DNA from: Polytrichum commune
Lineage: Eukaryota; Streptophyta; Polytrichopsida; Polytrichales; Polytrichaceae
Assembly: GCA_950295325.1 (NCBI GenBank)
Contig: OX485803.1
Span: 1,178,001-1,242,000, forward strand
Direction: 5' to 3'
DNA: 64,000 nt
The notes beneath the pieces are model-generated. The model was given only the letters and a program-made list of their open reading frames with translations. It ran no database searches and was not told the origin of the DNA. Positions 1,489 through 20,220 of the stretch are shown here, piece after piece (the first letter of the stretch is position 1; every line of letters begins with the position of its first letter). Made by a program: the position numbers and the translations under genes.

Positions 1489-2283
1489 AGTACCATGCCG
1501 TACAACACACGTCTATGCTCTCAAGGGTGATGACCTTCCGACCCGCTCCGTTCACATGTATCGCCCTATGGACATCAAATTTTTTGGTGGATCTTAGACG
1601 GAAATCTCCAAGCCACATTTCCTCGCAAATGGCCCTCAATTTATCCCTTGGGAACAATTGGCAACAACGATGTACACAACAATCCTTTGTGGCAACTTCT
1701 CTAATAGACTCCTCACAGAGCAACCTTTGACGTTTACATTCATTTGCAGACGGAGTAGCACGTGCCAATGTATCGTACTTCCGTAGGCCTTTGCGTGGCC
1801 GAATGTTTGCTTGGAGCTCCTGTTGGATTTGGATGTGTCGTCGCTCATGGTCATGTAAGCTAACCCCCTCAATTGTCACATTCCTCAACGGCCACCTTCG
1901 CAACGAGAACCTATGAGTTGGATTCACTTCGGAATGTACGAGTGATTCCAATATAACAACTCCAACGTCCTCGGTTCCAAGGGGGTTTTCATCAATGCAA
2001 TCTTGTGGATGTGTGTTACGACAAATACCCTCCGCCACAACAACTCCACTGTCATTAACAAGTACCACATCCAAATTCACCCATGAAGCTCGTGAAAGCC
2101 CCGCACATTCCACAATGGGGCAAAAAGGGGCAGATGGCGAAGGACTCCCCAAAGGACCTTCATCTGCACTGTCATTAAAACTATCCTCCCCGACAATGTC
2201 TAGCTCATCCCCAGACGAAGAATGGGTGTTGCCCATGTCTTCAGAGAAGGAGTCCCCTCTTCCACCAACTCCCTCCATTGCGC
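1489..2283 (-). pseudogene. Transposase-like N-terminal exon (partial)
   Basis: A 263-codon open stretch from ATG at 2278 down to a probable donor (GTGAGC) at 1488-1483, preceded by a plausible acceptor (GTGTGTAG) ending at 2284. The N-terminus is acidic and Ser-rich. The C-terminal 90 residues carry a Cys/His-bearing segment (CCVHRCCQLFPRDKLRAICEE, then MWLGDFRLRS, then VITLESIDVCCTAWY). This resembles the N-terminal region found before the catalytic core of transposase-like proteins that continue as C-x-AWY-x-(I/V)-x-G-x-(S/P). The open stretch ends just where that core should begin, with an intron signal, and no catalytic exon is visible in the remaining 1.4 kb. It may be truncated or continue outside the window. 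The family match is from memory of the motif and is not certain. Confidence 0.45.
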
Positions 2284-2478
2284 CTACACACATGCACATG
2301 AAACCTCAACACACATGGACACAATGCAAGGTTCCAAAAGAATCAAATATCGGAGAATGCAAGACATCATGATCAATGGGGACACCCAGGATAAAGACAT
2401 AAGCAACACAACTACAATGTGAACTCCCAATACTGTGCGCAAGTCCAAAAAAAGTTCCACAAAATATTTTGGGAGGGA

Positions 2479-3342
2479 GTTTGGGTCGGCCGACCTAAAC
2501 TCTGTGGCACCATGGATTCATCCACAGCTTGCCCATGGGATGGGGTCGGGATTCGGTTGACCGACTCAAACCTTGTACAATGATGGGTTCAGGGCCATAC
2601 AAAATTCGATCACGTTGTGGAAAAAAGTTTGGGTCGACCGACCCAAACCTTCCCATGCTCAACCTACATCCGCCCAAGCTGAGGTAGGGGTTTGGGTCGA
2701 CCGACCCAAACCTTCACAGGGTAAATATACCTCCACTGTGCTAGGGGTTTGGGTCGGTCGACCCAAACCCCTTAAGGGTCAGAGAGGCACCCTGAAACAC
2801 ATGGGTAGGGGTTTGGGTCGGTCGACCCAAACCCCTTAAGGGTCAGAGAGGCACCCTGAAACATTGGGGTAGGGGTTTGGGTCGGTCGACCCAAACCCCT
2901 TAAGGGTCAGAGACGCACCCCAACACACTGGGGTAGGGGTTTGGGTCGGTCGACCCAAACCCCTTAAGGATCAGAGACGCACCCCAACACACTGGGGTAG
3001 GGGTTTGGGTCGGTCGACCCAAACCCCTTAAGGATCAGAGACGCACCCCAACACACTGGGGTAGGGGTTTGGGTCGGTCGACCCAAACCCCTTAAGGGTC
3101 AGAGAGGCACCCTAACACACTGGGGTAGGGGTTTGGGTCGGTCGACCCAGACCTGCTAAGGGTCGTACAGGCACCCTAACACACTGGGATAGGGGTTTGG
3201 GTCGACCGACCGCAACCTGATAAGGGTCGTACAGGCACCCTAAACAGTAGTGGACAGGTTTGGGTCGGTCGACCCAAACCTCATCAGGGTCAGACAAAAA
3301 CCCTAAACAATAGTGGAGGGGTTTGGGTCGACCGACCCAAAC
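2479..3342. repeat. Tandem array of about 14 palindromes, period about 62 bp
   Basis: Each unit holds TTTGGGTCGGTCGACCCAAA or the variant with ACCG in the centre. Centres lie near 2490, 2639, 2701, 2761, 2823, 2887, 2950, 3014, 3077, 3139, 3205, 3270 and 3332, plus a degenerate copy near 2560. In the best units the arms extend to 14 bp (AGGGGTTTGGGTCG and its complement) around a 2-base centre. Units are joined by a conserved linker with CTTAAGG, GTCAGAGA and GCACCC words. Arms are perfect in the middle of the array and decayed at both edges, as expected for tandem amplification. It lies in the presumed first intron or leader of the minus-strand transposase-like gene. Confidence 0.95.
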
Positions 3343-3344
3343 CT

Positions 3345-3655
3345 CATAAGGGTCAGACTCAAAACCCGCCAACACTCGTGGAAAGATGAAGAGCGCCCAA
3401 ATACACCACAAAATCCGGCGTATAATACGGAGGATATTGCGTGGTGTGTTGAATTTGAGCTCATTGCAAAGTTCACGGTGGGCTTGCACCCTGTGGATAG
3501 GTGCTCATGAAATTCCATGCTCTGGAAAAAGTGCTCGTGAACGGCAGCATGCACAAACCTTTCAGTACAGTTCCGACTAAGAGTTCTCTCTACGAATTCA
3601 GCAGCGGGAAAGGAGAAAAAAATGACCAACTTTTGGGGGGTGCGCCCCTTTATAC
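3345..3655 (-). promoter_or_regulatory. Possible promoter/leader of the minus-strand gene (TATA at 3649-3654)
   Basis: On the minus strand AGTATAAAGGGGCG forms a TATA-box-like element at 3649-3654, in a locally GC-richer patch. About 30 bases downstream begins a leader-like stretch running to the palindrome array. This layout (leader, palindrome-bearing intron, ATG exon) mirrors the plus-strand gene that starts near 6.9 kb. Evidence is positional only. Confidence 0.35.
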
Positions 3656-3839
3656 TATCCACCTCCGCTTCCCAGACTTAGGCATTGGATGCCTTTCCCG
3701 CCTTCTTCTCTTGCAGAGGTTATTTCGAACCTCCTTACATAATTCCCGGTTTTTTGTTTATTGTAGAAAATGCGCATCTATCAATGCCCCTCTGATACCC
3801 CAGCCGTCATATGACTTAGTCTATGATATTTAATCTATT

Positions 3840-4254
3840 TTTTTGGTTTTGTGTGGATATGACATACATCATTGGGAGGAAGGGTGGCGGCCACATTTAT
3901 TTTTTCAAGTATCATGACAGTATATTTTAACCAATATATAGATCCAAACACAACTCCATTCAATGCTTTCAAGTGTAAACCTATTTAGGTGGGGTTTGGG
4001 CCATTTGGAGGCTTCAATTATGAGAGAGTTTCCAAGGCTTGAGGCCATTGTCATGGTGAATAAAATTATTTATTTGTCTCCACTAAACCCTACACCCTAG
4101 AACATTGTTCTATTATCTCGCATGCAAGTGTGGCAATGACGAACGTATGTGGACGTTCTTAAGGGGATACTAACTACCAATGTCCCTTTTTAGTTCAATC
4201 TTTTAATGTTACTTGAATCCATCCTCAAGTTCACTTCAAGTTTACAAATGTGTG
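3840..4254. other. Intergenic, nothing recognised
   Basis: AT-rich DNA with no coding signal I can support. Confidence 0.4.
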
Positions 4255-5075
4255 TGAGCAAAACATCAAAAATTGGACCCTCAACCCTTATATCATCCAC
4301 AACATGAAATACGTATTGACTAAATACAAAACCAATTAGGATATCATGTTTAAACGTCCCATATAACATATTCACATGATCAACATTGTATTTACTATGG
4401 CCTTCCGATTAGACTCTTCTTCATATTATGCAAACAATATCTGTTATATCTTCCTCCATTATCTAATACACGTGCAGAGAACAATGAATAACAACATGAT
4501 TGCTTGAATGGCTTCATTTGATGTTGTGCTTCTCCGATCTACTTTTACATCACATTCCATATATTAAATACATCATAAACCATGGTTTATTAGCGACTAT
4601 GCGATTCCCTAAAGTGAGCAAAACATCCAAAGTTCGACCCCTAACCCCTAATAACATCCACAACATTTCATGTTATTTGAATAAACACAAGAGCAATCAA
4701 TATATCGCGTTTAAACGTCTCAAATAACAAATTAACATAATCAAGATCGTCTTTCCTATAACCTTCCTTTAAGACTCTTCTCACCAGTAAGATAATGTTA
4801 TACATTGACAATGTTAATATGTTATAACCCTATCTCCTAAACCCTAAACCCTAAACACCAAATCTAGTTGTGATTCACTGATGCCCCCATATACAAACAA
4901 CATCTATTTTATGTTGCGCCATCATCTAATATACATGGAGGGAACATGTATAACAACATGATTGCTTGAATGGCTCCATTTGATGTTCTGCTTCTCCGAT
5001 TTACTCTTATATCACAATCTAATATATATTAAATATATCATGAACCATGGTTTATTGGCCACTTTGCGATTCATC
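4255..5075. repeat. Local tandem segmental duplication
   Basis: The block 4255-4610 recurs in the same order at 4617-5075. Shared words include GAGCAAAACATC, CATCCACAACAT, GTTTAAACGTC, AACAACATGATTGCTTGAAT and ACCATGGTTTATT. Divergence is substantial, so the duplication is old. The second block carries a small insert with a short CCCTAAACCCTAAAC run near 4840. No coding function is visible. Confidence 0.75.
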
Positions 5076-5271
5076 AAAGTCACAATATCAGGGATGTATT
5101 TAAAACTTGAGCATGTCAGCATTTTCAAATAAGGCTCATGCATTTCAAAACCCTTACAAAATGCAGTTGGGGAATGTATTCATTTAATAGGCTCCACACT
5201 CAAGTATTCTAAATTGTTCCACATGTTGGGGGGTGTGGGTAATCTTTTTTATTCATTCAATATCGTGTGAG

Positions 5272-5520
5272 TTGTTGGCATCATTGGTATAGTCTAGATG
5301 TCAATGATTACATCGTTAAATATCACGCAATTGTATGGTTTTCCTAACATGCTCGAACAAAAGAGAAAGCAATGTCCTCAATGTGTTTGGAAAATTTAGG
5401 GTATGGTGTCATGTAAGTAAGGGTTAAGTATTCGTTTAGCATAAAGTTTTGTTGTAAGAATGCATTGGCTATATAAATGGTTAGTTTAGTAGAATAACAC
5501 ATTTTATGTAGCACCTTAGT
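5272..5520 (+). repeat. Direct repeat, copy 1 (partner 6549-6785)
   Basis: AGTTGTTGGCATCATTGG opens both copies and GCATAAAGTTTTGTTG with AAGAATGCATTGG closes them; identity looks roughly 80-85%. The two copies bracket the tandem repeat and the hairpin-array element lying between them. Confidence 0.8.
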
Positions 5521-5547
5521 GTACTCCAGAGTTCAAGGTACATACTA

Positions 5548-5690
5548 TTTAAGGGCTTTATGTTGGATACTTCAAGTTACATACTATTTAAGGGCTTTAT
5601 GTTGGATACTTCAAGTTACATACTATTTAAGGGCTTTATGTTGAATAGCCTTCAAGTTACATACTATTTAATAAGGGCTTTATGTTGGAT
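5548..5690 (+). repeat. Tandem repeat, about 4 x 40 bp
   Basis: The unit TACTATTTAAGGGCTTTATG followed by TTGGATACTTCAAGTTACA is repeated nearly perfectly; the last copies carry short insertions. Confidence 0.9.
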
Positions 5691-6119
5691 GAACGAGAGG
5701 TGCACTTGTACACTTCAGAATTATGTCTTGCTATAACTTTTACCGACATTATCGTTTTTTACGAACTAAGTCATATCATAATTTTTCGTGTGCATACTAC
5801 CTACTTATGTTATTTGGATGAAAAAATACTTTCTATTAAATGTTACAGAAATGTGTAACTCCGAATGTTATGCCACACTAATTAGAGAAAATAGTCTAGT
5901 GGATTAGGAAATGATCACAAGCACAAGGGATTGAAAACTTGAGAAACTTGTACAAAAGCTTTGGTGGGGTGCGAGGTGGGGGTGGGGGGCATTTTATACA
6001 TCATAGTAGAGTTATACATGAAGTCTTGGATCAAACTTAGGTTTGAGAATATAACCATAAAGTCATCCAATTATTTCAAGGGCTTAGAACCATTTTTAAA
6101 GCAGGACCACAACAACATA

Positions 6120-6548
6120 GTCTAATGTTTGGGTCGTCCTACCTAAACCATCCCAAATTAACGAATATAGTGATTAATACAAATGCAGCCTAAAAAATAA
6201 GTGACTTAGCCTATAAAATTTTGAGAGTGTAGGACAAAGAGCCTATGCACAATTTAAGAACATAGGATATCAACCTAGTATGTGATAAAAAACATGTAGG
6301 AAATTTTACCTACAAATTTTTTAAAAGAGAGGATTTTAGCCATTCATCCTTCTTCAAATTGGGAAATTAGTTGGCCTAAGTACATATCTTTAGGCTATAT
6401 CTTGCAGGAAGAGTAGAGGTTGAATCTAAAGATGGTGAGGACTTTCACCCTTAAACTCATTTGAATTTTAGCAACCTTTCATAACTTATAATCAACGCTT
6501 TAAAAAATAGTTGGTTAATCCTTGGCCTTCAAACGTGGTGAAAGGCAT
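6120..6548 (+). repeat. Hairpin-array element, truncated copy C
   Basis: The segment matches 57.6-58.3 kb in the opposite orientation and contains evenly spaced short hairpins: TAGG-8-CCTA near 6230, TAGG-7-CCTA near 6264, and GTAGG-8-CCTAC near 6296. It starts next to a decayed palindrome (TTTGGGTCGTCCTACCTAAA, 6129-6148). It ends inside the tRNA-like core, where the sequence switches abruptly to the direct repeat at 6549. Confidence 0.75.
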
Positions 6549-6785
6549 AGTTGTTGGCATCATTGGGAAAGTCTAAATGTCAATGATTACATCGTTATAT
6601 GTCACGAAATTGTATTATTTTTCTAACATGCTCAAACAAAAGAGAAACCAACGACTTCAACTGGTTTGGAAAGTTTAGTGTATGGTGTCATGTAAGTAGG
6701 GGTTAAGTATAAGCTTTGGCATAAAGTTTTGTTGCAAGAATGCATTGGCACCGCACCTTAGTATATTTCATGTAGCACCTTAGTT
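6549..6785 (+). repeat. Direct repeat, copy 2 (partner 5272-5520)
   Basis: Same wording as the first copy from AGTTGTTGGCATCATTGG onward. It truncates the hairpin-array element at its left edge, so it was placed after that element or by recombination through it. Confidence 0.75.
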
Positions 6786-6854
6786 CATTGAAATAAGTAA
6801 TACCCGCTAAGGGTTTAGAGTTAGGCTTTAGGATTTAGGGTTCCCCGAAATCCT

Positions 6855-7611
6855 AATTACATGGGTACCCTAATCCTGTGGGCCGCCTATTGGCGGGGGT
6901 GGGGCCAATTCCCGAGGCGAACAAAACCCCAAACGTCACCTTTTCAAATTCTTTCTCTCTCTCTCCGCGGCAAGCATTCCCTCCGCGCCTCGCTTGGAAG
7001 CGCCGCTTTCGCGAAGCGCCGCGGCGATTTAGGCGCGGTATTCCCACCATTCTGCTTCTTCTTCATTATTTCTCTTTTTGCTCTTGCTCTTGCTCTTGCA
7101 TAACTCTTATCCAATCTTAGGTTTTAGGAAGAGTCTTGAAAAGCACAAAAACTTGCGGAGGAAAGGTTTAGTGCGTGAGGGTAAAGGAACTTAGTAGAGG
7201 AGTTTTCAAGAGTGTTGTTTAAGAGTGTTCAAGAGTGTTGCAGAGTGTTGAAGAGTGCGGCAAGAAGTTAGGAGAACATCGTGTAGGAGGTTGAGATTGT
7301 GCTTGTGAGTATCAGGAGTTCTTGTGTAGTGCAAAAGATTTCAAAGTCGTTTGAGCGATTCTGTAATTTTGTGATAGATTCAGGAGTTGCTTGAGACATT
7401 TAGAAGTCTTTTGAGAGATCCAGTATTTGTTTGAGAGATTGAAGAGTTGTTTGTGAGATTGAAGAGTTGTTTGAGAGATTGAAGAGTTGTTTGAGGGATT
7501 CCAGAGTTGTTTGAGATTGAATAGTTGTTTCAGAGATTCCTGAGTTGTTATTGAAGGTTATTGGAAAGAGACATCATCTACTCCAAAGTGTTTGCAGTGC
7601 AAATTTCAAAG
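6855..7611 (+). promoter_or_regulatory. Promoter and non-coding leader exon of the ParB/methyltransferase-like gene
   Basis: Composition changes abruptly near 6870 to GC-rich DNA with CT tracts (TTCTTTCTCTCTCTCTCC) and CGCG-rich words, typical of a plant promoter/5' leader. From about 7130 the sequence is purine-rich without a long open frame. It ends AATTTCAAAG before a good donor (GTATTG) at 7612, which pairs with the acceptor TTTCTTTCCTTGCAG ending at 8267, just before the first coding ATG. I infer a leader exon of roughly 0.5 kb and an intron of 656 bases. Confidence 0.5.
7377..7550 (+). repeat. Tandem repeat in leader, unit about 22 bp
   Basis: Repeats of GATTGAAGAGTTGTTTGAGA with point changes, about seven copies, lying in the presumed non-coding leader exon. 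Confidence 0.85.
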
Positions 7612-8267
7612 GTATTGTGTTATGTTTCTGGTCTCTTAGTGTTGTAGCATACACAACGCATAAGCATTGTTTATGCTACGTGCAAACTTTTAAAATATAT
7701 TAGTAAAAAACACTTTGGGGAGACGACCCAAACAAGGCTGCTGTTTGGGTCACTCGACCCAAACAAAGGAAGATGTTTGAAACCCTAAACCCAATCAAAG
7801 GCAGATGTTTGGGTCGCTCGACCCAAACACGGTCTTCTAAACCCTAAACTCATAAAGAAATCCATGATGTTAGATACAATATCAAATACAAATCCACCCA
7901 AAACTAAAAAATCCGATGTCACCATACAAATGATGTTCACATATAACAATATAAACTAGGGTCCTCTCATTCTTGGGTCGCTGGACGCAAACAAGGGCTG
8001 ATGTTTGGGTCGCTCGACCCAAATACAGTCTTCTAATTATAAACCCATCAAACAATCCATGATGTTAGATACAATATAAAATGCAAGCCCACCCAAAAAT
8101 AAAAATACAATATCACCATTAAATGATGTTCACATATAACAATACACAAACCACCAAAATACATGCGGCAATTTATTACATTTCAATTACATCACGTGAC
8201 TTCTATTCATTTTGAAGAAGTTTGGGTCGAACGACCGAAACTAACATTGGGATTTCTTTCCTTGCAG
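7612..8267 (+). other. Leader intron carrying five palindromes
   Basis: Bounded by GTATTG and CCTTGCAG. It contains TTTGGGTC-act-CGACCCAAA near 7750, TTTGGGTCGCTCGACCCAAA near 7810, degenerate copies near 7974 and 8219, and a good copy near 8004. A 45-base block around CCATGATGTTAGATACAATA is also duplicated within the intron (7862 and 8056). No coding potential. Confidence 0.55.
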
Positions 8268-9593
8268 ATGGCCCCAAAGAAACAACCAGGCGAAAGGTGG
8301 TTCATGCTTGCGCCAGACATGATATGGCAAGAACACAAAACACCGGAAGATGACTCCTACGTTCCTAAGGACGGGCTTGTCCTCGCGTGGTCTATACAAG
8401 TGGTTAAGGGTTCGCAATACAAAATGATTTTTGTTGTGAAGGTTGGGACCGTGGAGAAGCACACATGGGCTACTCTTACGGGGTGGGAGGTGGCATCGGT
8501 TCAGTCTCTTGGAGACTACATGGATGTCATCCTCGAGAACAACGCTGTCCAGAACGCGCATATGTTTATGCACCAGTTCTCCGAACCCTTTGACGCTATC
8601 TATGCAAAAGAAACATGTGTAGAACCAGACGTCATCAAACCGGAGTCCATATTCATCGATAACAGTACATCGAATACCAAGGTCTCAAGCCGGTTCACAA
8701 AACTAAAACATGCAATAACCGTGTTGAACAAGGACCTGCAAAGCAAAACCAAATCACAGCAACCTGTGAGGCGGAAAGCTACCACAGAGGAAGGAGCAGG
8801 GTCGTCAAGACCTCAATCGGTGAGGATGCCGTGACCAGTACCGGCTGACTCACGGAGGACCACTCCCTCCCAAACACCTACGAATAGTGAGGCTCCTACA
8901 CCTTCTGGGAGCCGTCAAACAACTCCATCCAAGAAGGCGAGAGAGTCATCTGTGATGACTGACGAGCCAGTCTCACCGGAGTTGCGCATGCCGAAGCCCG
9001 GCGAAGAGGTGGATGCAGGGGAGTTGCAGAAAATCGTGAACAATTTCACGACGAAATGCTCCCACTGTTTTTTCATGGGCAGGGATTTCAAGTTCGACGT
9101 GAACATCAGCCAGTGCCATCTAGCGCCACCGGAGAAGTGTGTCTGGGCAAAGGAGGACGCCTACGTTGACTGGATAATCGCGCAGATCGTTTGCGAGCAG
9201 TTTAAAGACGACAGACAAACGATTGTAGTGATACCACAGGGTCTCAAGAAAATGCCTACCCCTGAAATGTGGCTAACAATTCAGAAGGGCGATTTTTGGT
9301 TGATAGACGGCCAATACAACGTGGAGGCATCCAAGAAAATCCAACTCATGAATGAGTGGGATGATCCCAACAATCAGAAGGAAAAGCTGAAGGTTTGGAA
9401 GGCACTGATAGTGTGGTCTGACGACGAGACCAAGCTCAGCGACATCTCCCGGTACTTCAATATGGGAAACAAGAAGAGGGCCTACCAAGCTTCCTGGATA
9501 AAGAATATCATGGCCTCGCGGGAGGTGTGGGAGTTCTATGGTAGGCCTCCCAAAGAGAGGGAGAATGCGAAGGACAAGAATCCCAAATGGGAG
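8268..9593 (+). CDS. Exon 1: unknown N-terminal domain plus ParB/DGQHR-like domain
   Basis: Begins MAPKKQPGERWFML directly after the acceptor CCTTGCAG; 442 codons. Residues 1-130 form a compact mixed domain I do not recognise. Residues 150-230 are Ser/Thr/Pro-rich and include an in-frame TGA (8832-8834), with the frame open on both sides for hundreds of bases. Residues 245-440 contain DVNISQCHLAPPEK, TIVVIPQGLKK, FWLIDGQYNVEASKKI and ISRYFNMGNKKRAYQASW. A strand, then DGQ-(H/Y)-x-V-x-A, then a downstream S-x-x-F-N motif is the layout of ParB/Spo0J-type and DGQHR-type domains; here His is replaced by Tyr. The exon ends at a strong donor, GAG then GTGAGT. Confidence 0.55.
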
Positions 9594-9808
9594 GTGAGTA
9601 TTGTTTGGGTCGACTGACCCAAACTCCTGGTGCAGCCTTGTTTATTTAGTTTGGGTCGATCGACCCAAACTACTGTTGCAGTCTTGTGTTTTTTTAGTTT
9701 GGGTCGATCGACCCAAACTCTTGTTGCAGATGTTGGTCATGATATGGTTTGGAAATCACATGTACATATCTAACACGCATTCAAATGTTATGTTTTGTTC
9801 ACGTGCAG
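9594..9808 (+). other. Intron 1 with three palindromes
   Basis: GTGAGT to CACGTGCAG. Palindromes at 9603-9624, 9649-9670 and 9697-9718 are spaced about 47 bases, and each is followed 10-15 bases later by GTGCAG or TTGCAG, a possible 3' splice site. The first palindrome starts only nine bases after the donor. Confidence 0.75.
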
Positions 9809-11141
9809 GATTTTAAATACCAAATGATCAACAAATTCTCCTCCATTGATAATTCGAGCCACAAGCAGAAGAAATACAACGACCTCAAGGGGGAGATTTA
9901 CTTGATTACAGCATCTGACTCAGTTTGGAGGAAGTGGAAAACCGTGTTTGAAAAGCATGAGACGGGGAATTTGATCGACCCCGTACACTGGCGCTTTCTT
10001 CAGCCAAACCTCGCGCTTCAAGCAAATGAAGCCTCTCGTGAGAGAGTTCTTTAGAACTCTTCAAGGGCTGTCAGAGACGGAGGTGGAGAAGGCGACATCG
10101 CACATCCTGCACGTGGCACCCACGGCGAAGAGGTGCTGGGTGCACCCGAAGATTGTCTTCGTAAAGCCCAAATCCTTCGTTCCTTCATGCTACACCATGA
10201 ACAAATGGACGGAGAACAGGAAAAAGAAGACGACTATCGTGCAGGAGCTGCATAAATTGGTGCCAGAGAGGAATATTGTCGTGGATGGCGAGGTTCATGA
10301 GGCTAACTGGAGAGCATTCAAAGATGAATATAAGTTCACCAGTGCCTCCATGGCGGCTCTAATAAGGGAAGCGGGGGACGACTTCTTGCGGGCCAAGATG
10401 GTGAAGGGTGGGAAGAACCGGACGCTTCCGGATCACACAGCGCGTGCGTTCTCGAACTTCATCAAGGAGAAGAAGATTGTCCAGTTTGAAGGGGACGCTT
10501 ACTTCAACCTTGTCATCTTCGACCCTTTGAAAATTCAGGGCTGGCCAGGTCAAGACGCCAGAATGGCGATAAGGACGAAAGCAAGGGACCGCTTTCCTTT
10601 TGGGATGATTGATTTTAGAAATATTTCTGGAAGCTCATTTGAGGGCACGATGAGCACCCTCTTCTACGACCCCTTCTTATCTAAGTTCGTCGATTATGCA
10701 AGCCCTAAGTTCAGGGAGGTAGATATCTGGCTTTGGATAGTCGAGGATAGGAGGGCGGAGCAGGTGTACGAGCTTGTCCAGAAACTGTAGCCGGAGTATG
10801 CAGTGTCCAAGTCTCACTACATCGCCGCACCGGCAGAGGGGGCTTACACAACGTTGAAGGACAAGAAGACCAAGTTCGTCAACGTCTTGTGTTTGTACTT
10901 CGTGTACAAAGCGGAGTTGCTGAAGGTGCCGAACCACCCTATATCCCGGATGGACAAACTCTTCCAAGTTCCAGAAGGGTTGGGTGCCAACAAGTGCCTC
11001 TACGACGAGGCTAAATACGCGAACTATCCTGCAGATGAGCTGCGGATGGAATTTTACATGAGAATGATGAGGACGCTGACGAGGAGAGGGGACTGCATCT
11101 TCAACGTCTTCGGAGGCTCAAAACCTGTTTATGCTGCTATG
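9809..11141 (+). CDS. Exon 2: beta-class DNA methyltransferase-like domain
   Basis: Opens DFKYQMINKFSSID. A one-base frameshift lies near 10020 (frame LQPNLALQAN switches to MKPLVREFFRTLQG) and an in-frame TAG (CAG to TAG) at 10788-10790. The catalytic-type motif YFNLVIFDPLK (about 10500-10535) sits where N4/N6 amino-methyltransferases have DPPY or DPPW. About 195 residues later comes ELRMEFYMRMMRTLTRRGD followed by CIFNVFGGSKPVYAAM, matching the PE-x-L...PGD...DPF-x-GSG AdoMet-binding motif. The order (catalytic motif first, AdoMet motif last) is that of the beta class. Both motifs are off consensus (DPLK for DPPY, GGSK for GSGT), so activity is doubtful. ParB-methyltransferase fusions are known in phages and prophages. 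The exon ends ATG then GTAAGT. Confidence 0.5.
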
Positions 11142-11302
11142 GTAAGTGACTTTCTATAGCTCGTAAGCAGGTTTGGGTCGATCGACCCAAACTAGGCTCT
11201 TTGCAGGTTTGGGTCGACCGGCCCAAACTACACATTGTACTTAGTCTTGTTTATGTGACTGCCTCGACAAATTCTAATTTCCCTATAACTTGGATTGTGT
11301 AG
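11142..11302 (+). other. Intron 2 with two palindromes
   Basis: GTAAGT to ATTGTGTAG. Palindromes at 11170-11191 and 11207-11228, the second preceded immediately by CTTTGCAG. Confidence 0.75.
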
Positions 11303-12787
11303 ATGTCGGGGCTGAATATATACTCCTACATAGAGGATGGCGATCTGCCATTTTACAAGGTGCAGAAATCGCTGGCGAAGAAGATGGACATCCTCGATTG
11401 GATCCCGGGTAGCTACGTCGACGAGGTTGTTCAGGGGGGCGAAAACCCTCTTGATAGGGTGAGGCGCATCAACCCGGAGGAAATGGACATGAGGGCCACG
11501 ACCCAAGTACCCGAACCTCTGGTCGGGTTGCATCCGGGCAATCCGTCCCGCACAGAAGGTGGCGAGGTTGAGGAGGAGGAGGAAGAAGAGGAACACGAGG
11601 AGGCGGAGAAGGAAGGCGACGTCGAGGAAGGGGCAACGGGCTTCACGCAAGAATCCGAAGCCCCTCAACGGAAGAAGGCGATGCGGGCGGCAACCCCGCA
11701 GAGTAAGCTCGTGCCCGTCCTGACGGTGGACGATGCACGGGACATGTACTCCAGGGACACGACCGCCACGTTCAGGGAGAGGAGGAAGATGAAGGGGAAG
11801 AAGTTGTATGGCGACTACTCCGTGAAGGAGACCATTGCCATAAGCAGCGAGGACGACGATGATATTGAGCTCGCCAAACGGCTCAAATCGGATCCCCCCT
11901 CCCCGACAGCGTTCGCTGGCATGGTTAGGGTGAAACCCGAAGTCCTCACGGTGGATGAGGCGAACGAGAAGATGCGGAGGGACGAGGAGCAACGCGTCTG
12001 TCTGCAGAAGGTTGCCGCTGAGGAGCCCTCAATGCGGAACGAGGTAGCAGAGCTGAGGGCTCTCCTGTTGGAGCAGGAGCGACATAGGACGATGGCCCAA
12101 CCTCCGTCCCACGCCGAATTGATATCACAAGTGATACAAAGAATGTGGGCGCAAGGTTTGGTGGTGGCTCCCTCCAGCTCCTTCCCGCACTTGCCCCCCG
12201 GCTTCCCTGCGCAGAGCATCCCTCGGCAACCTATGCCGCAATCGTCTTTCAGCTTCCAGCATTTGATGCGGCCCCACCAAGTTCCGTACGCGCCGGTCCA
12301 ACAAGTGGATGACCCCAACATCTGGCGCGTCTCTGGAGCCTCCTCCCCTTTGGGCCCTCCACCACTTCGGCCCCCCATAGTCATGGCGCCCCCTCACCAA
12401 TCGGACGACCCCAGGATGTTTGGGTCGACCGACCCAAACCCACCATCCACTGTAGTGTCCGAAGGGCCTTCTCCAGATGCAGGACAATTTGGGTCGGGCG
12501 ACCCAAACCCCGTTGCAGCGCAGTCCTCCCTTGACCAACATGGGTGTCAACTAGACACGGCCATGCTAGATGTTGAAGGCCTGCAAGGGCCTGGTGATAC
12601 CTCTACTCCTAACCAAATCGATGAACGCATGCATGATGCACATGCGGAGATTGGTTTACGACAAGGGCCTGATGCCGATCGTTTGCAGGAGAAGGTTCCT
12701 GACGTCGTTGGAGAAGGCGGTGGCGAGAGAGGCGGGGCAGCGGGGACGGTGGAGGCTTCCACATCGTCGAGACATGACCAGGGCGAG
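11303..12787 (+). CDS. Exon 3: end of methyltransferase-like fold and long disordered linker
   Basis: 495 codons, open throughout. The first 35 residues (LNIYSYIEDGDLPFYKVQKS) follow the FGGSK motif as the strand and helix after the AdoMet loop do in beta-class enzymes. The remainder is low-complexity: an acidic run around codons 85-112 (EEEEEEEEHEEAEKEG), a basic stretch RERRKMKGKKLYGDY, a second acidic patch SSEDDDDIELAKRLK, a short coiled coil (RNEVAELRALLLEQERHR), then a Pro/Ser-rich region. Two palindromes (12420-12439 and 12489-12508) are translated in frame as FGSTDPNP and FGSGDPNP. This is the only place in the gene where the repeat is exonic, and an unrecognised intron there is possible. 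Ends GAG before GTAATA. Confidence 0.55.
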
Positions 12788-13276
12788 GTAATACACTGAG
12801 CCCTCCCCAGTTTGGGTCGACCGACCCAAACTTCCTGGGTCAATGTCTTGTTGGCGTGGTCGTGTCCCCCTTGCTAGGAGGAAATGCACACCCCTTGCCC
12901 CCCCCCATGCTCTACACTTGCTCCCCCTCCCCCAACGTGCCCCCCGCGATCCCCTTCGTCTCACCTGCATTCGACTACGCTCGACCTTGGCGGCGCTCAA
13001 CCAATTTTGTAGATGTAGAATTAGGGTAGTGTGAATGCCCTCGTTCACCGCGGTCCCCCCCCCCATCAAATTGTACATAGAGATTTGTAAAAATAAAATT
13101 ATTATTTTTGGCGCCCATATGTTTGCATCCGTGTCCCAATGTATGTTGTTCGCCTTGTATATTTTTGTTGCCACCAATGGTCCAATTGTTCTTGTGTTTG
13201 CACAAAATTTCCGTTCTGCTTGAGATGGACATAGCATAACATAGTCCTTGCCGCCTTCTCTCGCTCGTCGCCGCAG
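12788..13276 (+). other. Intron 3 with one palindrome
   Basis: GTAATA to CGTCGCCGCAG, 489 bases. One palindrome at 12811-12832, then C-rich DNA (12880-13000) and a T-rich stretch. No alternative frame runs through it. Confidence 0.65.
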
Positions 13277-14047
13277 GGTTCGGAGCATAGCGTCGCGGCT
13301 CCCCACCGATCCTGTCCGAGGAGTGTGGAGGACAGCGCGGTGGTCCCCCCGATTTTGCCCTCGCCACCTTCGCCTCCCAAGACCCGGTTCCTGGTGCTAG
13401 ACCTCAATGGGGTCCTTGTCCAGTGCGTGCATTGTCCGAGGGTCCCAACGGTCCCTTTCTGCAAGCCCGAGGACGCCAACTACGATGGTCCCCCCGCGTA
13501 CATCAAAAGCAAGCTAGTGTACCTCCGCCCGTGGCTTCGGCGCTTCCTGCAGGTCGCCCTATCCAAATGGTGGGTGATCGTGTGGAGCTCCATGAAGTCC
13601 GAGACCACCCAGGCCGTCGTGGAGTTCATCTTCAAGGGACTCCAACCCCCGTGCTTGGTCCTAGGACAGGATTCTTGTAAAACATTATACACCCCCGAGG
13701 GCAGGGTTGTGAAGAAGCCCAACAACCCCGCCGTAAACCAATTTCTTAAGGTCTTGAAGCCAGTCGTATGGGACCAGCGTCCGACCATGGTCGGCTGTCC
13801 CTACGACGTTCGCCCCACCCGTGACAACACGTTGATGGTGGACGACAGCGCTTCCAAAAACATTTTGAACCCGACCTCGAACTTCATAGTTTGCCCCACG
13901 TGGACGGTCGAGAAGGTCCGAGACCGCTTTTTGTTAGACCTACTTAAGTACATTCAAACGCTCGTGGGGAGCGGACTACCCGTGCCCCGGTTCCTTAGTT
14001 GTAATCCGATAGGCGAAAGATACATGGATCCGAAGGACTATATGTAG
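13277..14047 (+). CDS. Exon 4: FCP1/NIF-type HAD phosphatase-like domain
   Basis: Starts GSEHSVAAPH after the acceptor; 256 residues to TAG. Residues 40-50 read FLVLDLNGVLV, the motif I of FCP1/SCP-like HAD phosphatases in the plant-typical DLNG form (second Asp replaced by Asn). WWVIVWSSMKSETTQAVV matches the conserved WSS(A/M)...N segment. NTLMVDDSASKNILNP matches the (M/L)-(I/V)-DDS-x-x-K motif, and FIVCPTW the closing motif. Family role: removal of phosphate from Ser/Thr, classically the RNA polymerase II tail; the Asn change is common in this plant subgroup and its effect is unknown to me. After TAG the frame stays open (RELYAHAKYNKLI) to a TGA, and AATAAA lies at 14075-14080, so a transcript could end here. 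Confidence 0.7.
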   Translation, partial: GSEHSVAAPHRSCPRSVEDSAVVPPILPSPPSPPKTRFLVLDLNGVLVQCVHCPRVPTVPFCKPEDANYDGPPAYIKSKLVYLRPWLRRFLQVALSKWWVIVWSSMKSETTQAVVEFIFKGLQPPCLVLGQDSCKTLYTPEGRVVKKPNNPAVNQFLKVLKPVVWDQRPTMVGCPYDVRPTRDNTLMVDDSASKNILNPTSNFIVCPTWTVEKVRDRFLLDLLKYIQTLVGSGLPVPRFLSCNPIGERYMDPKDYM

Positions 14048-14207
14048 AGAGAGTTGTACGCTCACGCGAAATATAATAAACTCATTTGAGATACTACATG
14101 GTGTGCCATTGTGTGTGATATATTATGCCTCAATTGTATATCGATTTTCTCATGCTCCCCCCTGCCCCCCTCCCCTTGGGTTTTGTTTGTTTTAATTTTG
14201 CCATCAG

Positions 14208-14561
14208 CGTTTGGAGCCCTCGATTGAGATCGTCAGCGAATCAAACTTGGGGAGCTTCTTCTACGAGACCGTCTACGATGCCGCGTCCACCATCGACTAC
14301 TCCAAGGAGCCTATTGACGCCGGCGTCGTCGATAGCCCCCCACCCAAGCAAATCTTCCGGCATTCTCCGTCCCCGTCGCCGCTCAAGGGCATAAATCGCA
14401 AATGCGTCCGGACGTCCCCCTCTCGGCCCGGCGGCAGTATTACACCTCAACGGCGGCTGCGGATGGACGCTCGGCCAATGAAGAGTGGAACCCTTCCTAT
14501 TCCTTTGCGGGACGCATTGCCCCTCCTCGCCAACTCCGACGGGAACGCCCCCGGTGACAAG
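14208..14561 (+). CDS. Possible exon 5: Ser/Pro-rich tail
   Basis: 118 open codons from a T-rich acceptor (TTTTGCCATCAG) to a donor (AAG then GTGAAA). It encodes LEPSIEIVSESNLGSFFYETV and a Ser/Pro/Arg-rich stretch (HSPSPSPLKGINRK). It lies after the stop of exon 4, and no phase-0 donor is obvious upstream, so it is either the continuation of the gene past a mutated stop or a separate partial transcript. No domain recognised. Confidence 0.4.
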
Positions 14562-14691
14562 GTGAAACCCCCCCCCCCCAACATGGTTAACCGCGCATTA
14601 CAATCATCCCGCACTTAAAAAATGAACGTGTGACTCGTTTGGGTCTTCCTCCCTAAACTAACACGTGTGTTCTTGCATTCACGCGTTGCAG

Positions 14692-14994
14692 GTTGCTCCC
14701 ACCCGTAAACCTATGCGGGCTAGTATGTCCGTCGAGTTGGAGCGTTTCTACTCCATGATCAGAAATGCAAGACAGTCCACTTCATCGTATTCGAATTCTT
14801 CGTCGTATAATTCGGGCGGCCGACGGAATCCAAAATGTGTTATTGATGGCGGTCACCCCAAGAATGGCTATAGTCGCGGGGTGGAGATTTTCAGGAATGT
14901 TGAAGCAATGCGAGCAAAAGAAGCCGCAGGAAAAGAAAAAGAAAAAAAAGAAAAAAAAGAAAAAGAAAAAGAGGCAGTATCCGAGGCTAGATAG
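14692..14994 (+). CDS. Possible exon 6: Lys/Glu-rich C-terminus
   Basis: Follows acceptor CGCGTTGCAG; 100 codons then TAG at 14992-14994. Reads VAPTRKPMRASMSVELERFY, then a Ser/Tyr/Asn-rich stretch. It ends in Lys/Glu repeats encoded by an A-rich microsatellite (14930-14972), so the tail length is probably variable. The intron before it (14562-14691) carries a decayed palindrome near 14639 (TTTGGGTCTTCCTCCCTAAA). Confidence 0.4.
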   Translation, partial: VAPTRKPMRASMSVELERFYSMIRNARQSTSSYSNSSSYNSGGRRNPKCVIDGGHPKNGYSRGVEIFRNVEAMRAKEAAGKEKEKKEKKEKEKEAVSEAR

Positions 14995-15159
14995 GCCATA
15001 GTAGGCGTAGGGTTTTGGGGGCGTAGGCAACATCATTTTGGGTCGCACTATCCAATGGATGTGTGGTGTTAGCATGCTATGCATTTTACATGCCATAATT
15101 TGTATGTTTTTTTTGCAATAATATAAGTGTCACATGATTTCCCCTTCAATATGGTTTAA

Positions 15160-15375
15160 GGTTTGGATTGCCCTACCTAAACCATCACAAATATGAATTT
15201 GGAATATTTTGTATGTTATATTATATTGGTTCACATATTTCCCCTTCAATATGATCTATGGTTTGGATTGCCCTACCTAAACCATATTCATACAAGTTTT
15301 TGTGCGATAATATGAATGTTTTAAGATTTCCCCTTCAACTTGGCCTAAGGTTTGGATTGCCCACCCTAAACAATC
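15160..15375 (+). repeat. Three decayed hairpins, period about 95 bp
   Basis: GGTTTGGATTGCCCTACCTA followed by AACC occurs at 15162, 15261 and 15349 (the last slightly changed), separated by AT-rich DNA with TTTCCCCTTCAA words. It looks like the CpG-depleted form of the TTTGGGTCGNNCGACCCAAA palindrome, and marks the downstream edge of the gene block. Confidence 0.75.
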
Positions 15376-16165
15376 CCAAATATGAGTTATTAATGGGGTT
15401 CTTGTTCTAAACACCCGCTTCAAAGTGTTCGCATCTTACAACTTTCTCCAATATGTGTTCCATTTATCCTTGTTCTTATTTCTATGAATGTCTCAAAATG
15501 CCCAAAAAGTCTCATTTTAACCATTATAGTGTTCCTTGCATTTTTAAGCGATTGTGTTAGTGGGTTATAATAGTAGTATTTTCATCATTTGCGGTGGTTG
15601 GGAATTCATCGTGACAATATGTGAATTAATGTATTGTATGGTATGTGATGGGGTCACGGGGGGTTGACTCCTTGGGGGGTGTTGTATATCACGTGTGGCC
15701 AAGGGGTATTTTTTTGGGGGGTATTTTGATGGCCTGGACTAATTAAATGGACCCTTCAATTACCTAATTTTCTAATTCTTCATGTTTTTTGGGTCCATAT
15801 AATTACTTACAATTTCCGAAGTGGAGTAATATTTCAACCCCTAAATTTATTATAACAAATTAAAGTAAATCAAAAAAGTGAAGTTTGGAGATTAAAGACA
15901 AAAATCTTGAACACACTATACAACCCTGAAACGACCACATGTATGCAAGACTATTGAGAAGAATCCCACAGAAAAATATATGCATTACGGTGTGTATTTA
16001 CAAACACAGTTTTCATACAAAAGCCGGTTCCTACTTCAAGATACTTAGCCCTATTTAAAAGCCGAGACATCCTGAACCTGCACAAACCAGCTAAATACCT
16101 TAGGAATTGCCTGCGCCAAAACTAAACCCGCTAGACATACAATATCAAAACTGAAGTAGTGGAAT
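15376..16165. other. Intergenic, nothing recognised
   Basis: AT-rich, with a G-rich patch near 15650-15720. No coding or structured element I can support. Confidence 0.4.
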
Positions 16166-16686: not shown

Positions 16687-18363
16687 TTATTTTTGATCAT
16701 TAATGAATTGATTTAGGGCATCTGCATCTTCAGAGTCTAGGGTGTATACATCGGTGGACGAGTTATACGAAAGTGTCACAGTGGTGATGATTGTATCTAC
16801 ATCAATCCATCTACTATCCGTATGGTCATACTTGAACTTCAGATGGCCCGGACATTTACGAAAATATTGAAGCATAACTTGAAGATTGCATGGGGAGGAA
16901 CTTTGCTTCCCTGAAGTTGAAGACCGGTTCATAAGGTCAATGGGGTGTCGAAGCAGACCCCATTGTGTTCCAACACGCCTCCGCATCGACTGTACACGGC
17001 CAATCCACCATGTTCCATCGTCCACTCCCTGCAAAATGTTCGTTGGGGTTCCAGATTTTGACGCTTTGGAATTGCGACCCCGCTTTCTCTTCGCCGCTGA
17101 CCTCACTGTAGAGGAAATATTGGCTGTACTACTCTGCACAAAATAAACCCCACAATCCGACCCTATACCAAGGAGACATGTGCTAGAAGATGCAGCAGCT
17201 GTTAGATAGTCATCATGGTTGTTAAAATACATAGAATGCTTAACCCGAGTCAATCTATCCTTAGATAAAAATGGATTACCGTTCAATTGTGACACCAACG
17301 TAGACTTGTAAATGGAATGACCTGCAAACTCTACTGTTGGACTAACCTGGGTAGGGCATGCTACAGTTGACACTTGCTCTTCGTGGGAACTCAACATATT
17401 TGAGATGGCATCCCTCACCTCTCCCTCAAGCACAGCTGTTGCATCCTGACCGTCGTCACAGAAATCATTCTCCAAATCGTCTTGGCACAAGATTTGTGCC
17501 CCTTCTTCATCTCCCGCATGCCTTGATGCCATCATACTTTCTCTGATCACTTCGGAATCACCATCCTCTCCGGACACAGGTCTAGAACCCTGTTTGAACT
17601 TCATGAACCGTTCATCCACCTTCTCCAACTCCCATGGCTTGTTGAACCATGTTTTCAAATTTGCACGTGCATGTACACTTGGAGCCATGTTTAAATGTCT
17701 TAACATAACTTGGGCCAATTTTAGACCCTCCTGTAATGCCTCTACAACCTCAGGATTTGTTCTAATGTCGCCATAGTCAGCAAGGTCACATGGGGCTTCA
17801 CCATCCATGAGGGGATGTAATTTGGCCCAAATGTTTTCCATTTTATTGTGTTGCTTGTTGAACTTAAGGCCATTTTCAGCGTACTCGACTTCCGACATAT
17901 GGTTCAACGTGTTGGCTGTATTGACCAACTCATGAAAGTCATACGCTCTTTCGTTACCATTCATACCACCAATTTTGGAGAAAAAAACCTCACAACAGTC
18001 GCTCCCGGTTAGGTGCAGTGGAACCTGCAAGTGAGGATACCTATCCCTAAAGTGGCAAATGAGAAGAACAACAAAGTGACAAGACAATTGGATGTCAACG
18101 AAACATTGTTGGCTAACGAAATGATGAGCTTCAACGATCGCCATGGAGTTCCCCTGCACGGCATGATAACCATGTTTCAACCATAATCTCCAGATCCTGA
18201 AAAAGAATGAAACTTTGGCCGCCAATACTATCCTAGACCGCAAACTATGCCTAGGCGAGCAAAAGATGTCTATGTAATCTGCACAAATCTCTAAGTAATA
18301 CTCTGTCCCTAGTGTACGTTCCCTGTGGACATCATCCACCTCTCGCAAACGTCTTAAGCACTG
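16687..18363 (-). CDS. Transposase C-terminal part (catalytic Glu region)
   Basis: Continues the same frame after the TGA: GTEYYLEICADYIDIF, then a helical hydrophobic stretch with FFRIWRLWLKHG, then HLTGSDCCEVFFSKIGGM with the presumed catalytic Glu. A less conserved acidic tail of about 350 residues follows (for example DDLENDFCDDGQDATAVLE) with a basic patch SAAKRKRGRNSKASKSG. It ends LNQFINDQK then TAA about 40 bases before the MITE. Confidence 0.7.
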   Translation of the reverse strand, partial: QCLRRLREVDDVHRERTLGTEYYLEICADYIDIFCSPRHSLRSRIVLAAKVSFFFRIWRLWLKHGYHAVQGNSMAIVEAHHFVSQQCFVDIQLSCHFVVLLICHFRDRYPHLQVPLHLTGSDCCEVFFSKIGGMNGNERAYDFHELVNTANTLNHMSEVEYAENGLKFNKQHNKMENIWAKLHPLMDGEAPCDLADYGDIRTNPEVVEALQEGLKLAQVMLRHLNMAPSVHARANLKTWFNKPWELEKVDERFMKFKQGSRPVSGEDGDSEVIRESMMASRHAGDEEGAQILCQDDLENDFCDDGQDATAVLEGEVRDAISNMLSSHEEQVSTVACPTQVSPTVEFAGHSIYKSTLVSQLNGNPFLSKDRLTRVKHSMYFNNHDDYLTAAASSSTCLLGIGSDCGVYFVQSSTANISSTVRSAAKRKRGRNSKASKSGTPTNILQGVDDGTWWIGRVQSMRRRVGTQWGLLRHPIDLMNRSSTSGKQSSSPCNLQVMLQYFRKCPGHLKFKYDHTDSRWIDVDTIITTVTLSYNSSTDVYTLDSEDADALNQFINDQK

Positions 18364-20220
18364 TCAAACTTTTTTAGAACACAGTCTTTGGGCTGAACCC
18401 CAGTTTTGCCGATCTTTTCTATCAATATCCTCTTGTCTCAGACCATGTTCATCTGCAGTGAACCGGTTATAGACATGACCCACATGTTGGAGTAAACATA
18501 CGTCACCTCCAAGTTGCATGCAACGCACGGAAGACAACAAAGGGTTTATTAATTTCTTCCCGTTGTGAATGTAATCTTGGTCATGTAGACCAGAAACATC
18601 ACCATCTCCATTAATCGATGCTGTGAAAAACCATCCTTCCCACCCCACAGAAAGACGCTGACCAATTGGGTTTCTATAGTCTTGAAGCATTAGTTGCCTT
18701 CTACGACTGTCTCCGTCACTAGCATGTCCAACTATCGGTCCGACTGCAGCTTGGCACTTAGTAGCCCACAATGCATGAATACTATCCCATTGACGCCTTA
18801 CCCAAGCGGAATCAAAGCAATTACATGTACAACAAACAACTAGAACAAGTCGGGGTAGCTTGTCATGTAGGGGATTTACGATGATTACCCTTGCAAAGGA
18901 CCCAACCTGGTCATCCCTAAATGATTCAACAATTTTACTGTATCCATCTTCTCCTACTCCACAGACAGGCTTATACGTTGTTATACACACATGATTGGCT
19001 TTTGGCCCACAAAAACCAGCAAGCGTGTCCCACTTAGCTTCCCACGATATTCTGCCTTTTACCTTGGTCTCATCCTGAGCCAAAATCACTGGGACGGGAC
19101 CAATAATGTTATGAGCTGTCTTGGCGTCTGCGTATATTCTAGCAACGGCACCAAAAATTTCGGAGTGCTCACCCGGTACAAACTGGACTCCTTTCTTAAG
19201 ATCTCGTTTTATTGTGTTGTAATTAGGTCCAGCAAAGTTCAAAGCAAACAAGTCGCACATCCGCCTCCCGCCATAGACCTTCATTGCTTGAGCAAAACAC
19301 TTACTGTTTCCACTATATCGATTACCCCTATCGTCCCGATTCAGATTTTGGGCTACATCTTGAATGAAGTCCCAAAGTGCAGGCTTACCTCCAAATGCCC
19401 CGGTTCGATGCGCATTCAATATATTTTGGCAGAACTTATGGACATTGTGGTCAGAGGTGGCATTCTTAGCCATCTCTCGAAGAGTTGGTCGTTTCACCTT
19501 CAGTTGCGTTATTTTAGCACGTGCTGCCCAATGTTGCAGCCTCTCGAATCTATATTTCCTCGCTACATACCTACTGTGACGTGAAAGCTCATTCATAGAC
19601 AAATAACCCACCTTCATACCACTAGAAGTGGTTCGTAAGCCCCTCTTCACGATAGACTTGTCCTCCCTAACAACCCTTTTTCTAAAATCAGATTCTAGAG
19701 GAATTTCAGCGCACGACGGGCAAGTAAGATTAGGAAACCCTGCAACGAACGATGACACCCTACGACATTTCTTGTGTCGAAATGTACCTTGGACTCGTAC
19801 TTCAGTATCACGAACAGAAACAGAAGCCTCTACGTGTGGTTCAGGATACCAAGATACACCAACATGTCGATCTTCTAATAACGAGGTTACAGAATATGAT
19901 ACTCCACCATATACAACATTGGGTCCACGATAACCCCAACACATGACACTCAACAAAGAATTACTATCATGTGAGAATGGATCACATGTTTGCCCACCTG
20001 CGCTAGTGCTTGTACCACCTCCACATCTGAAGAATGCATGCAAGTCCGGTTGATTAGACTCCACAATTAAAGCTGATGACGTCCGTGGCCTTCCCTTCCT
20101 ACCGGTGAGCAGCGCAACACCTCTTCGCTCTTGATTCTTGAATTCCTCAACTGCTTGTAAGTGCTTTGAACTAGCCATGTGATTCTTCAATGTGGATTCC
20201 AATTTTTTTTGGGCGGGCAC
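18364..20220 (-). CDS. Transposase central part (first two catalytic Asp)
   Basis: Open for about 610 codons after the A8 frameshift. It starts with the rest of the second finger (LKNHMASSKHLQAVEEF), then a Gly/Ser-rich linker, then a Cys-bearing segment (HKKCRR ... LTCPSCAEIP) resembling a third metal site. The core begins near 19100 with AQDETKVKGRISWEAKWDT and continues to GPIVGHASDGDSRRR and LHDQDYIHNGKKLINPL. It ends SAQRLCSKKV then TGA, and the same frame continues directly below. Confidence 0.7.
   Translation of the reverse strand: MPAQKKLESTLKNHMASSKHLQAVEEFKNQERRGVALLTGRKGRPRTSSALIVESNQPDLHAFFRCGGGTSTSAGGQTCDPFSHDSNSLLSVMCWGYRGPNVVYGGVSYSVTSLLEDRHVGVSWYPEPHVEASVSVRDTEVRVQGTFRHKKCRRVSSFVAGFPNLTCPSCAEIPLESDFRKRVVREDKSIVKRGLRTTSSGMKVGYLSMNELSRHSRYVARKYRFERLQHWAARAKITQLKVKRPTLREMAKNATSDHNVHKFCQNILNAHRTGAFGGKPALWDFIQDVAQNLNRDDRGNRYSGNSKCFAQAMKVYGGRRMCDLFALNFAGPNYNTIKRDLKKGVQFVPGEHSEIFGAVARIYADAKTAHNIIGPVPVILAQDETKVKGRISWEAKWDTLAGFCGPKANHVCITTYKPVCGVGEDGYSKIVESFRDDQVGSFARVIIVNPLHDKLPRLVLVVCCTCNCFDSAWVRRQWDSIHALWATKCQAAVGPIVGHASDGDSRRRQLMLQDYRNPIGQRLSVGWEGWFFTASINGDGDVSGLHDQDYIHNGKKLINPLLSSVRCMQLGGDVCLLQHVGHVYNRFTADEHGLRQEDIDRKDRQNWGSAQRLCSKKV

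Follow-up and report, generated by a model that had tools for sequence, protein, structure and literature searches.

What is a gene with apparent ParB, DNA methyltransferase and FCP1 phosphatase parts doing in a plant genome? The question arose at positions 8268–14047 (+) of a 64,000-nucleotide stretch of Polytrichum commune (contig C1, OX485803.1, positions 1178001–1242000; hereafter, the window), where the original prediction had placed a composite host gene. We found that the host-gene view is wrong: the gene is the second, accessory gene of a high-copy DNA transposon of 16.5–20 kb, in which it lies opposite a DUF7869 (Sola-like) transposase gene. The transposon carries a repeated 22-bp dyad, and the type of dyad tracks the subfamily of related accessory genes. 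The surrounding transposon, two downstream exons (exons 5 and 6) and the dyad with its 28 sites are all features beyond that prediction.

The ends of the element were determined by comparing the window, together with 20 kb to its left (negative coordinates), with five further copies (c2–c6, 30 kb each). The ends were sharp in all five comparisons, at −3083/−3082 and at 15533. All six copies had 28-bp terminal inverted repeats (TIRs) starting AACACTATATTCGTTAAATTGAGACTTT, followed by 4-bp target-site duplications (TSDs), namely CCTT in the window copy and TTAT, TAGG, AATA, TCAT and AAAT in the others, with the TAGG of c3 being a reading that would become 5 bp if shifted. The features of the element outside the accessory gene and the dyads are as follows.

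−3082 to 15533 (C1:1174918–1193533): whole transposon, with its left end outside the window
1–15533 (unstranded): right part of the transposon, from homology with other copies, TIR and TSD
−268 to 1489 (1–1489 in the window; unstranded): private insertion found only in the window copy, splitting the transposase gene and missing from five of five other copies
1490–2305 (−): Cys-rich N-terminal exon of the transposase, from open reading frames (ORFs); the exon for DUF7869 falls outside the window, on its left, and was matched in c4
15506–15533 (−): right TIR, diverged in the window copy, then the TSD CCTT, from the end comparison

The gene that reads leftward codes for the transposase; its DUF7869 domain, which we take to be a marker of Sola elements, was matched in copy c4 at E 3.1e-42. 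In the other five copies the sequence is continuous from −269 to 1490, without the private insertion, which carries 46/91-bp tandem repeats at 267–746. Two stretches of the window copy, 5535–6149 and 6551–8202, gave no alignment to the other copies at the lengths shown. A search of the 408-Mb genome with a 601-bp exon 1 probe scored 40 places out of 398 candidates, the other 39 having 97–98% identity. The 4-bp duplications and TIRs in six of six copies and the size above 15 kb are consistent with Sola elements, which, according to the available text of PMC10741241, have 4-bp TSDs, TIRs and a DDD-type transposase, may exceed 15 kb and occur in the moss Physcomitrella patens; that text mentions neither an accessory ParB/FCP1 gene nor a dyad array, unlike what we see here.

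The accessory gene itself is arranged as follows.

8268–9593 (+): exon 1, with an N-terminal domain of no assigned family, a linker and a ParB/DGQHR-like region; in-frame stop at 8832 (ORFs, profile alignment)
9594–9808 (+): intron 1, with three dyads at 9603, 9649 and 9697 (dyad scan)
9809–11141 (+): exon 2, with the methyltransferase-like motifs IFDPLK and NVFGGSKP, a frameshift and a stop at 10788 (ORFs, motifs)
11142–11302 (+): intron 2, carrying two dyads, one at 11171 and one at 11207 (dyad scan)
11303–12787 (+): exon 3, a continuation (MSGLNIYSYIED) with an acidic and proline-rich region (ORFs, comparison with the diverged family L034)
12788–13276 (+): intron 3, with a dyad at 12810 (dyad scan)
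13277–14047 (+): exon 4, an FCP1/NIF (HAD) domain with FLVLDLNGVLV (Pfam NIF)
14208–14561 (+): conserved downstream exon 5, 118 codons, phase 0, open and similar in c4 and L034
14692–14994 (+): downstream exon 6 with the final stop, in the window and c4; the L034 stretch stops short of it

The GC-rich exons, the phase-0 GT..AG junctions (9593/9809, 11141/11303 and 12787/13277) and the peptides quoted in the original prediction are all present. The exon set, with its phase-0 boundaries, recurs in c4 and L034, which is consistent with the single transcription unit proposed earlier. Exon 5 is possibly an alternative to exon 4, and an isoform lacking the FCP1 part may arise through exons 5–6. The gene is broken in the window copy: in-frame stops lie at 8832–8834 in exon 1 and 10788–10790 in exon 2, exon 2 is frameshifted at about 9975–10052, and the exon 4 stop at 14045–14047 is absent from c4 and L034, whose reading frames continue beyond it. 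Exons 1–4 of c4 are all open. A genome search with exon 2 scored 95 places among 1,222 candidates (91–100% identity), and 72 of the 95 were free of stops, a share biased upward toward intact copies because the scored places are the best matches. The window copy has decayed and other copies are open.

Nonsynonymous (dN) and synonymous (dS) divergence between the window family and L034 revealed strong purifying selection on the gene. In exon 2, over 444 gap-free codons, differences fell 51/31/197 on the three codon positions, with a dN of 0.090 and a dS of 1.79; the corresponding dN and dS values were 0.150 and 0.777 for exon 4, and 0.144 and 1.135 for the first 346 codons of exon 3 (0.305 and 1.334 with the tail, which was excluded from the 346-codon figure because it is out of frame in L034). 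Exon 1 showed 51/32/220 differences over 442 codons, with a dS that could not be computed. Changes private to single copies had no third-position excess (window copy 3/10/6, c2 3/3/4, c3 1/8/2, c4 2/3/2, c5 3/7/1 and c6 2/5/2), as expected of insertions drifting after landing. c4 and L034 have in common DGQHSVEASKKI, EPL[KR], NVFGGSKP and DLNGVL. This, along with the purifying selection, indicates that most of the off-consensus motifs were inherited; decay, which had been offered as one source of them, was rejected for [DE]PL[KR], GGSK and DLNGV on the basis of their presence in both sequences and the between-family dN/dS. DGQYN is a change of the window copy; c4 and L034 have DGQHS there.

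Of the three proposed domains, the FCP1/NIF assignment is certain. Exon 4 matched Pfam PF03031 with an E of 1.1e-13 and 51.6 bits (curated cut-off, 21.8) over profile positions 3–154 of 160, as well as TIGR02251 at E 3.6e-8, below that model's cut-off; a PDB sequence search gave only a weak UBLCP1 match (E 0.9). FCP1-type enzymes have the catalytic motif DxDx(T/V), in which the second Asp has a catalytic role. Although the domain match places the protein with FCP1/SCP C-terminal domain (CTD) phosphatases, the window copy, c4 and L034 all read DLNGV, with Asn in place of the second Asp, and judging from this motif the domain is probably inactive as a phosphatase. The start of exon 3 (11318–11404) had a weak NCBIfam match, far below cut-off, to MAD1 (E 0.019), a helix-turn-helix protein of a methylation-associated defence system.

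Exons 1 and 2 matched no family in Pfam, PHROG or NCBIfam, neither ParB nor methyltransferase, and their PDB sequence searches returned nothing relevant. When exon 1 was aligned by profile with two kinds of relatives described below (X and Z, labelled ParB-like by motif only), the top alignment sat on DGQH–DGNHR (hhalign P 0.052), the motif of D-G-x-H-R type being DGQHS in c4 and L034 and DGNHR in X and Z. With a six-sequence profile of relatives, 1 of 150 shuffles aligned equally well; with a three-sequence profile, 19 of 200 did. X itself had no Pfam match, and an X+Z ParB profile found no ParB and nothing relevant in PDB. tblastn against phages with the second part of exon 1 and with the X ParB exon gave only E 0.5 or worse, and an IMG/VR scan confirmed no relative for the second part of exon 1. 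The ParB-likeness of the accessory gene is weakly supported.

The methyltransferase identity proposed for exon 2 is unproven for the window gene; what speaks for it is the order of the motifs and the methylase-like region of its relatives. The alignment with five phage methylases fell on the right motif and was not significant (E 0.42; 113 of 200 shuffles equally good), and a combined eight-sequence motif-I profile had its best match elsewhere (82 of 120 shuffles equally good). N6_N4 methyltransferases have a DPPY-type motif IV and an FxGxG motif I, in place of which c4 and L034, like the window copy, have DPLK/EPL[KR] and FGGSK. Alignment-free structure prediction of two window pieces yielded no usable model (mean predicted local distance difference test scores of 39.0 and 35.4).

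The transposon also carries a mirror-symmetric 22-bp dyad, GTTTGGGTCG-NN-CGACCCAAAC (class 1). At up to three mismatches in its 20-bp core, the window contained 28 sites against 0.03 expected, all within 2480–15056. They occupy an intergenic array, the region upstream of the accessory gene, introns 1–3 and exon 3, in which the dyads at 12418 and 12487 translate in frame to FGSTDPN and FGSGDPN. The sites outside the gene are as follows.

2479–3357 (unstranded): dyad array with 13 of the 28 sites (up to three mismatches), mostly in a 64-bp tandem repeat between the divergent genes (dyad and repeat scans)
7743–8241 (unstranded): five dyad sites (up to three mismatches) upstream of the accessory gene (dyad scan)
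15161–15371 (unstranded): 92-nucleotide subterminal repeat with three degenerate dyads, at 4, 4 and 5 mismatches (dyad and repeat scans)

At up to two mismatches, no dyad was found in window positions 15534–64000 or in the 16.9 kb left of the element, so that the idea of a dyad common in host DNA was not supported. Genome-wide, 9,231 exact dyads were counted and the reversed control gave none. In seven fetched stretches (the window copy, c2–c6, and A2, which consists of L035 and L034) we counted 182 exact sites, 37 with one mismatch and 10 with two, with 16–36 exact sites per element stretch of the window family, and the array sites varied in number and position among copies. No exact dyad was detected in the IMG/VR scan or in GTDB contigs. 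Between c4 and L034, introns 1 and 2 outside the dyads were 0.52 and 0.52 identical (over 20 shuffles, identity averaged 0.47 and 0.47 and reached at most 0.51 and 0.50), while exact dyads numbered 3 and 4 in intron 1 and 1 and 3 in intron 2 (c4 having one more, imperfect), their centres varying freely. Intron 3 can still be aligned, at an identity of 0.63. The dyads have therefore been kept in introns 1–2 while the remaining intron sequence was nearly randomised between the families.

The same class-1 dyad occurs in a second type of element, X, whose transposase-like ORFs (recognised by eye; a Pfam match to SWIM, at E 0.076, is below cut-off) showed no BLAST similarity to the DUF7869 transposase better than E 0.79. 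X has a right end common to two copies and a divergent gene encoding FIWDGNHRFFAW (DGNHR) and, farther along, a region with motif I of methylases. In a tblastn search against phages, the methylase-like region matched 43 records (best E 0.007), and among the 10 listed, nine were annotated methylases and one was unannotated; hhalign against five of those phage matches gave E 2.4e-8, a value not independent of the tblastn search. Five X pieces found no Pfam match at E ≤ 10, the methylase-like piece found nothing relevant in PDB, and none of 15 comparisons between a piece of the window gene and a piece of X produced a significant alignment. The first 100 of the 9,231 class-1 places (C1 0.44–2.16 Mb) were all in loci of the window family or of X; two of them, C1:475338 and 475370, lie in a part of an X-type locus, Y, that is not itself alignable to X. 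When the genome was searched with the ParB exon of X, 150 of 1,242 candidates were scored and 154 matches obtained, with identity down to 41%. The ParB-like exons of X and Z had more than 1,200 first-look candidate places genome-wide (150 scored per search) and may rank among the more frequent coding repeats of this genome.

Other relatives carry other dyads. Z (L045), a 42% relative, has no class-1 dyad and has GTGTCTCGG-NN-CCGAGACAC (class 2) in a 244-bp array; this class counted 997 exact places genome-wide and none in the control. A third element, nested in Y, has methylase-like pieces 26–29% identical to X and contained 13 exact class-2 and no class-1 dyads, and the surrounding Y contained 12 class-1 and no class-2 dyads. 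Among the elements counted, the two classes never occurred together. The X-type element and the methylase-like element nested in it, each with a dyad class of its own, lie at C1:461375–486000 (L027, L036, L030, L032 and L037). Of the 50 distinct class-2 places among the matches listed, 49 belong to clusters that include an exon of ParB-like or methylase-like type (Z, the Y-nested element, and C1:15.22, 18.38 and 19.86 Mb), C1:10990945 being the one left unassigned.

A prediction test was performed on L050, a 69% relative, which proved to have no class-1 dyad and seven variant sites, GTGTCTCGG-CC-CCGACACAC; compared with class 2, three were at one mismatch and seven at up to two. The variant type has 92 exact places genome-wide (27 and 65 by strand; control, 0), of which 54 have an entered ParB-like exon no more than 10 kb away, 53 of these 54 on the strand of the exon. 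By cluster, 13 of 22 had an entered ParB-like exon, where chance would give 0.23 (at most 2 in 1,000 placements, taking C5 to be about 53 Mb long). In five of the 13, the site is single, TC-centred and next to a 93–94% relative, and is probably a mutated class-2 site; the remaining eight are nearly all CC-centred and lie next to 64–69% relatives. Together, these results indicate that the dyad type tracks the subfamily of related accessory genes.

On balance, we judge it slightly better than an even bet that the accessory protein recognises the dyads and thereby keeps the element transcribed, supports a transposition complex, or both. The protein would bind the dyads of its own element family as a dimer, marking the DNA of the element itself; its FCP1-like and acidic parts would then act on chromatin or RNA polymerase II; and the outcome would be continued transcription of the element, an anti-silencing effect like that of VANC, and/or the building of a nucleoprotein transposition complex. 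Sites of palindromic form would suit a ParB-like fold. Three observations weigh against the pairing of dyad type with accessory-gene subfamily: nine variant clusters (38 sites) have no entered exon, the 5.1 kb of L051 (a 64% relative) contain neither dyad class and only a 136-bp repeat without a dyad, and several Z-type exons on C1 (80 kb, 2.5, 11.0 and 13.8 Mb) have no class-2 site among the matches listed. In L051, a 136–139-bp tandem repeat without a dyad occupies 2148–2747.

The dyads could instead be sites of a host transcription factor or chromatin protein, recruited independently by several elements whose accessory proteins do something else. We regard this as unlikely, even though exactly the same dyad is present in two element types with dissimilar transposase-like genes and barely alignable accessory proteins. 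The dyad type shifts with the accessory-gene subfamily, including an intermediate variant in intermediate relatives, and the location of the first 100 class-1 places, all in such element loci, means that host sites are at least not common.

Somewhat less probable still is that the X-type protein is the true reader of the class-1 dyad and that the window-type element copied the dyads and exploits that reader, its own protein being a poor or antagonistic relative. X has both DGNHR and the methylase-like motif I region, of which the window gene has degraded versions only, and epigenetic gene transfer between transposon superfamilies has been described in fungi, as far as the available text of PMC12730594 goes; strong purifying selection between families on the window-type gene itself argues against this reading.

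We give slightly less credence again to the dyads being transposase-binding sites, or hairpin signals (cruciform, termination or RNA structure) for excision or replication, that do not serve the accessory protein. The dyads are inverted repeats, and plant transposons often have repeated subterminal transposase sites (En/Spm TnpA, Ac), but here they are not limited to the ends and occur between genes, in introns and in an exon, and one dyad is common to elements whose transposase-like proteins are no more similar than E 0.79, whereas the Z relatives differ. That the protein is an active DNA methyltransferase methylating the dyads is highly improbable: relatives have a methylase-like motif I region, yet motif IV reads DPLK/EPL[KR] in the window type, and QFPD and ADIP (placed by eye) in X and the nested relative, none of DPPY type.

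Dyad recognition by the accessory protein would also fit a wider reading, which we advance tentatively and hold to be rather less than an even chance: a eukaryotic self-recognition module resembling ParB/parS, in which ParB(-methyltransferase)-like proteins reside, within a single plant, on at least two kinds of mobile elements whose transposase-like genes are dissimilar, each protein lineage and its cognate palindrome change together, and one lineage gained a pseudo-FCP1 domain directed at RNA polymerase II. The system resembles prokaryotic ParB/parS and phage ParB-methyltransferase fusions in its putative ParB/DGQHR-like motif, its palindromic sites and the alignment of the X-type piece with phage methylases. 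Unlike prokaryotic ParB/parS, it is eukaryotic, intron-bearing and transposon-borne, and the window gene lacks canonical methylase motifs and, in exons 1–2, a Pfam match.

The working system closest to the proposed one is VANC, which presumably belongs to the DUF1985 family. In the available text of PMC5735166, copies of the VANC motif stand in tandem ahead of the transposase gene and also within introns, and the motif differs between families along with the protein. As in the VANDAL elements of Arabidopsis (available text of PMC5735166 and PMC10398659), the window element has an accessory gene next to the transposase gene and a repeated motif whose number varies from copy to copy. As described there, the VANC motif is a non-palindromic 9 bp, in contrast to the 22-bp dyad, and VANDAL is of MULE type with VANC from another protein family, in contrast to a DUF7869-type element with a ParB-like and FCP1 protein; anti-silencing in our element would be by analogy. 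In fungi, DNA transposons of several superfamilies share TET/JBP dioxygenase genes (PMC12730594), which resembles the present case in that one accessory epigenetic gene extends across several superfamilies and differs in enzyme and host, and a cognate repeat is not mentioned in the available text. Transposons with sequence-specific accessory proteins and superfamilies sharing an epigenetic gene are already known. In the titles and abstract openings listed from an open literature collection, we found nothing on plant transposons that carry a ParB-like accessory gene together with palindromes cognate to it. Of the matches listed for pieces of the dyad, none was about it by title and none had its 14-base centre; no match listed named DUF7869; and the ParB matches in the available text of PMC3671162 are species abbreviations.

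If the proteins bind their dyads, a plant genome contains thousands of sites of known sequence (9,231, 997 and 92 exact, of three types) for transposon-encoded proteins. Binding would also make this a natural series of protein and site variants, with which the evolution of specificity and the escape of transposons from silencing could be tested outside Arabidopsis, and would mean that plant transposons have reused a bacterial-type partition or methylase scaffold.

Elsewhere in the window, three consecutive long ORFs (370, 623 and 558 amino acids) at 16687–21299 (−), with QDETKVKGRISWEAKW and CPYC motifs seen by eye, may be one broken transposase; they had no Pfam match below E 0.1 and are unlike either transposase of this analysis. 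A Tc1/mariner-like transposase fragment lies at 53498–54304 (−; HTH_Tnp_Tc3_2, E 4e-4, below cut-off), and what we take, from its motif, to be another lies at 38522–38980 (+). Finally, a 479-amino-acid ORF at 43399–44835 (−), without a Pfam match, contains AARKNRIARQR, which presumably resembles the B2 region of ABI3/VP1 transcription factors.

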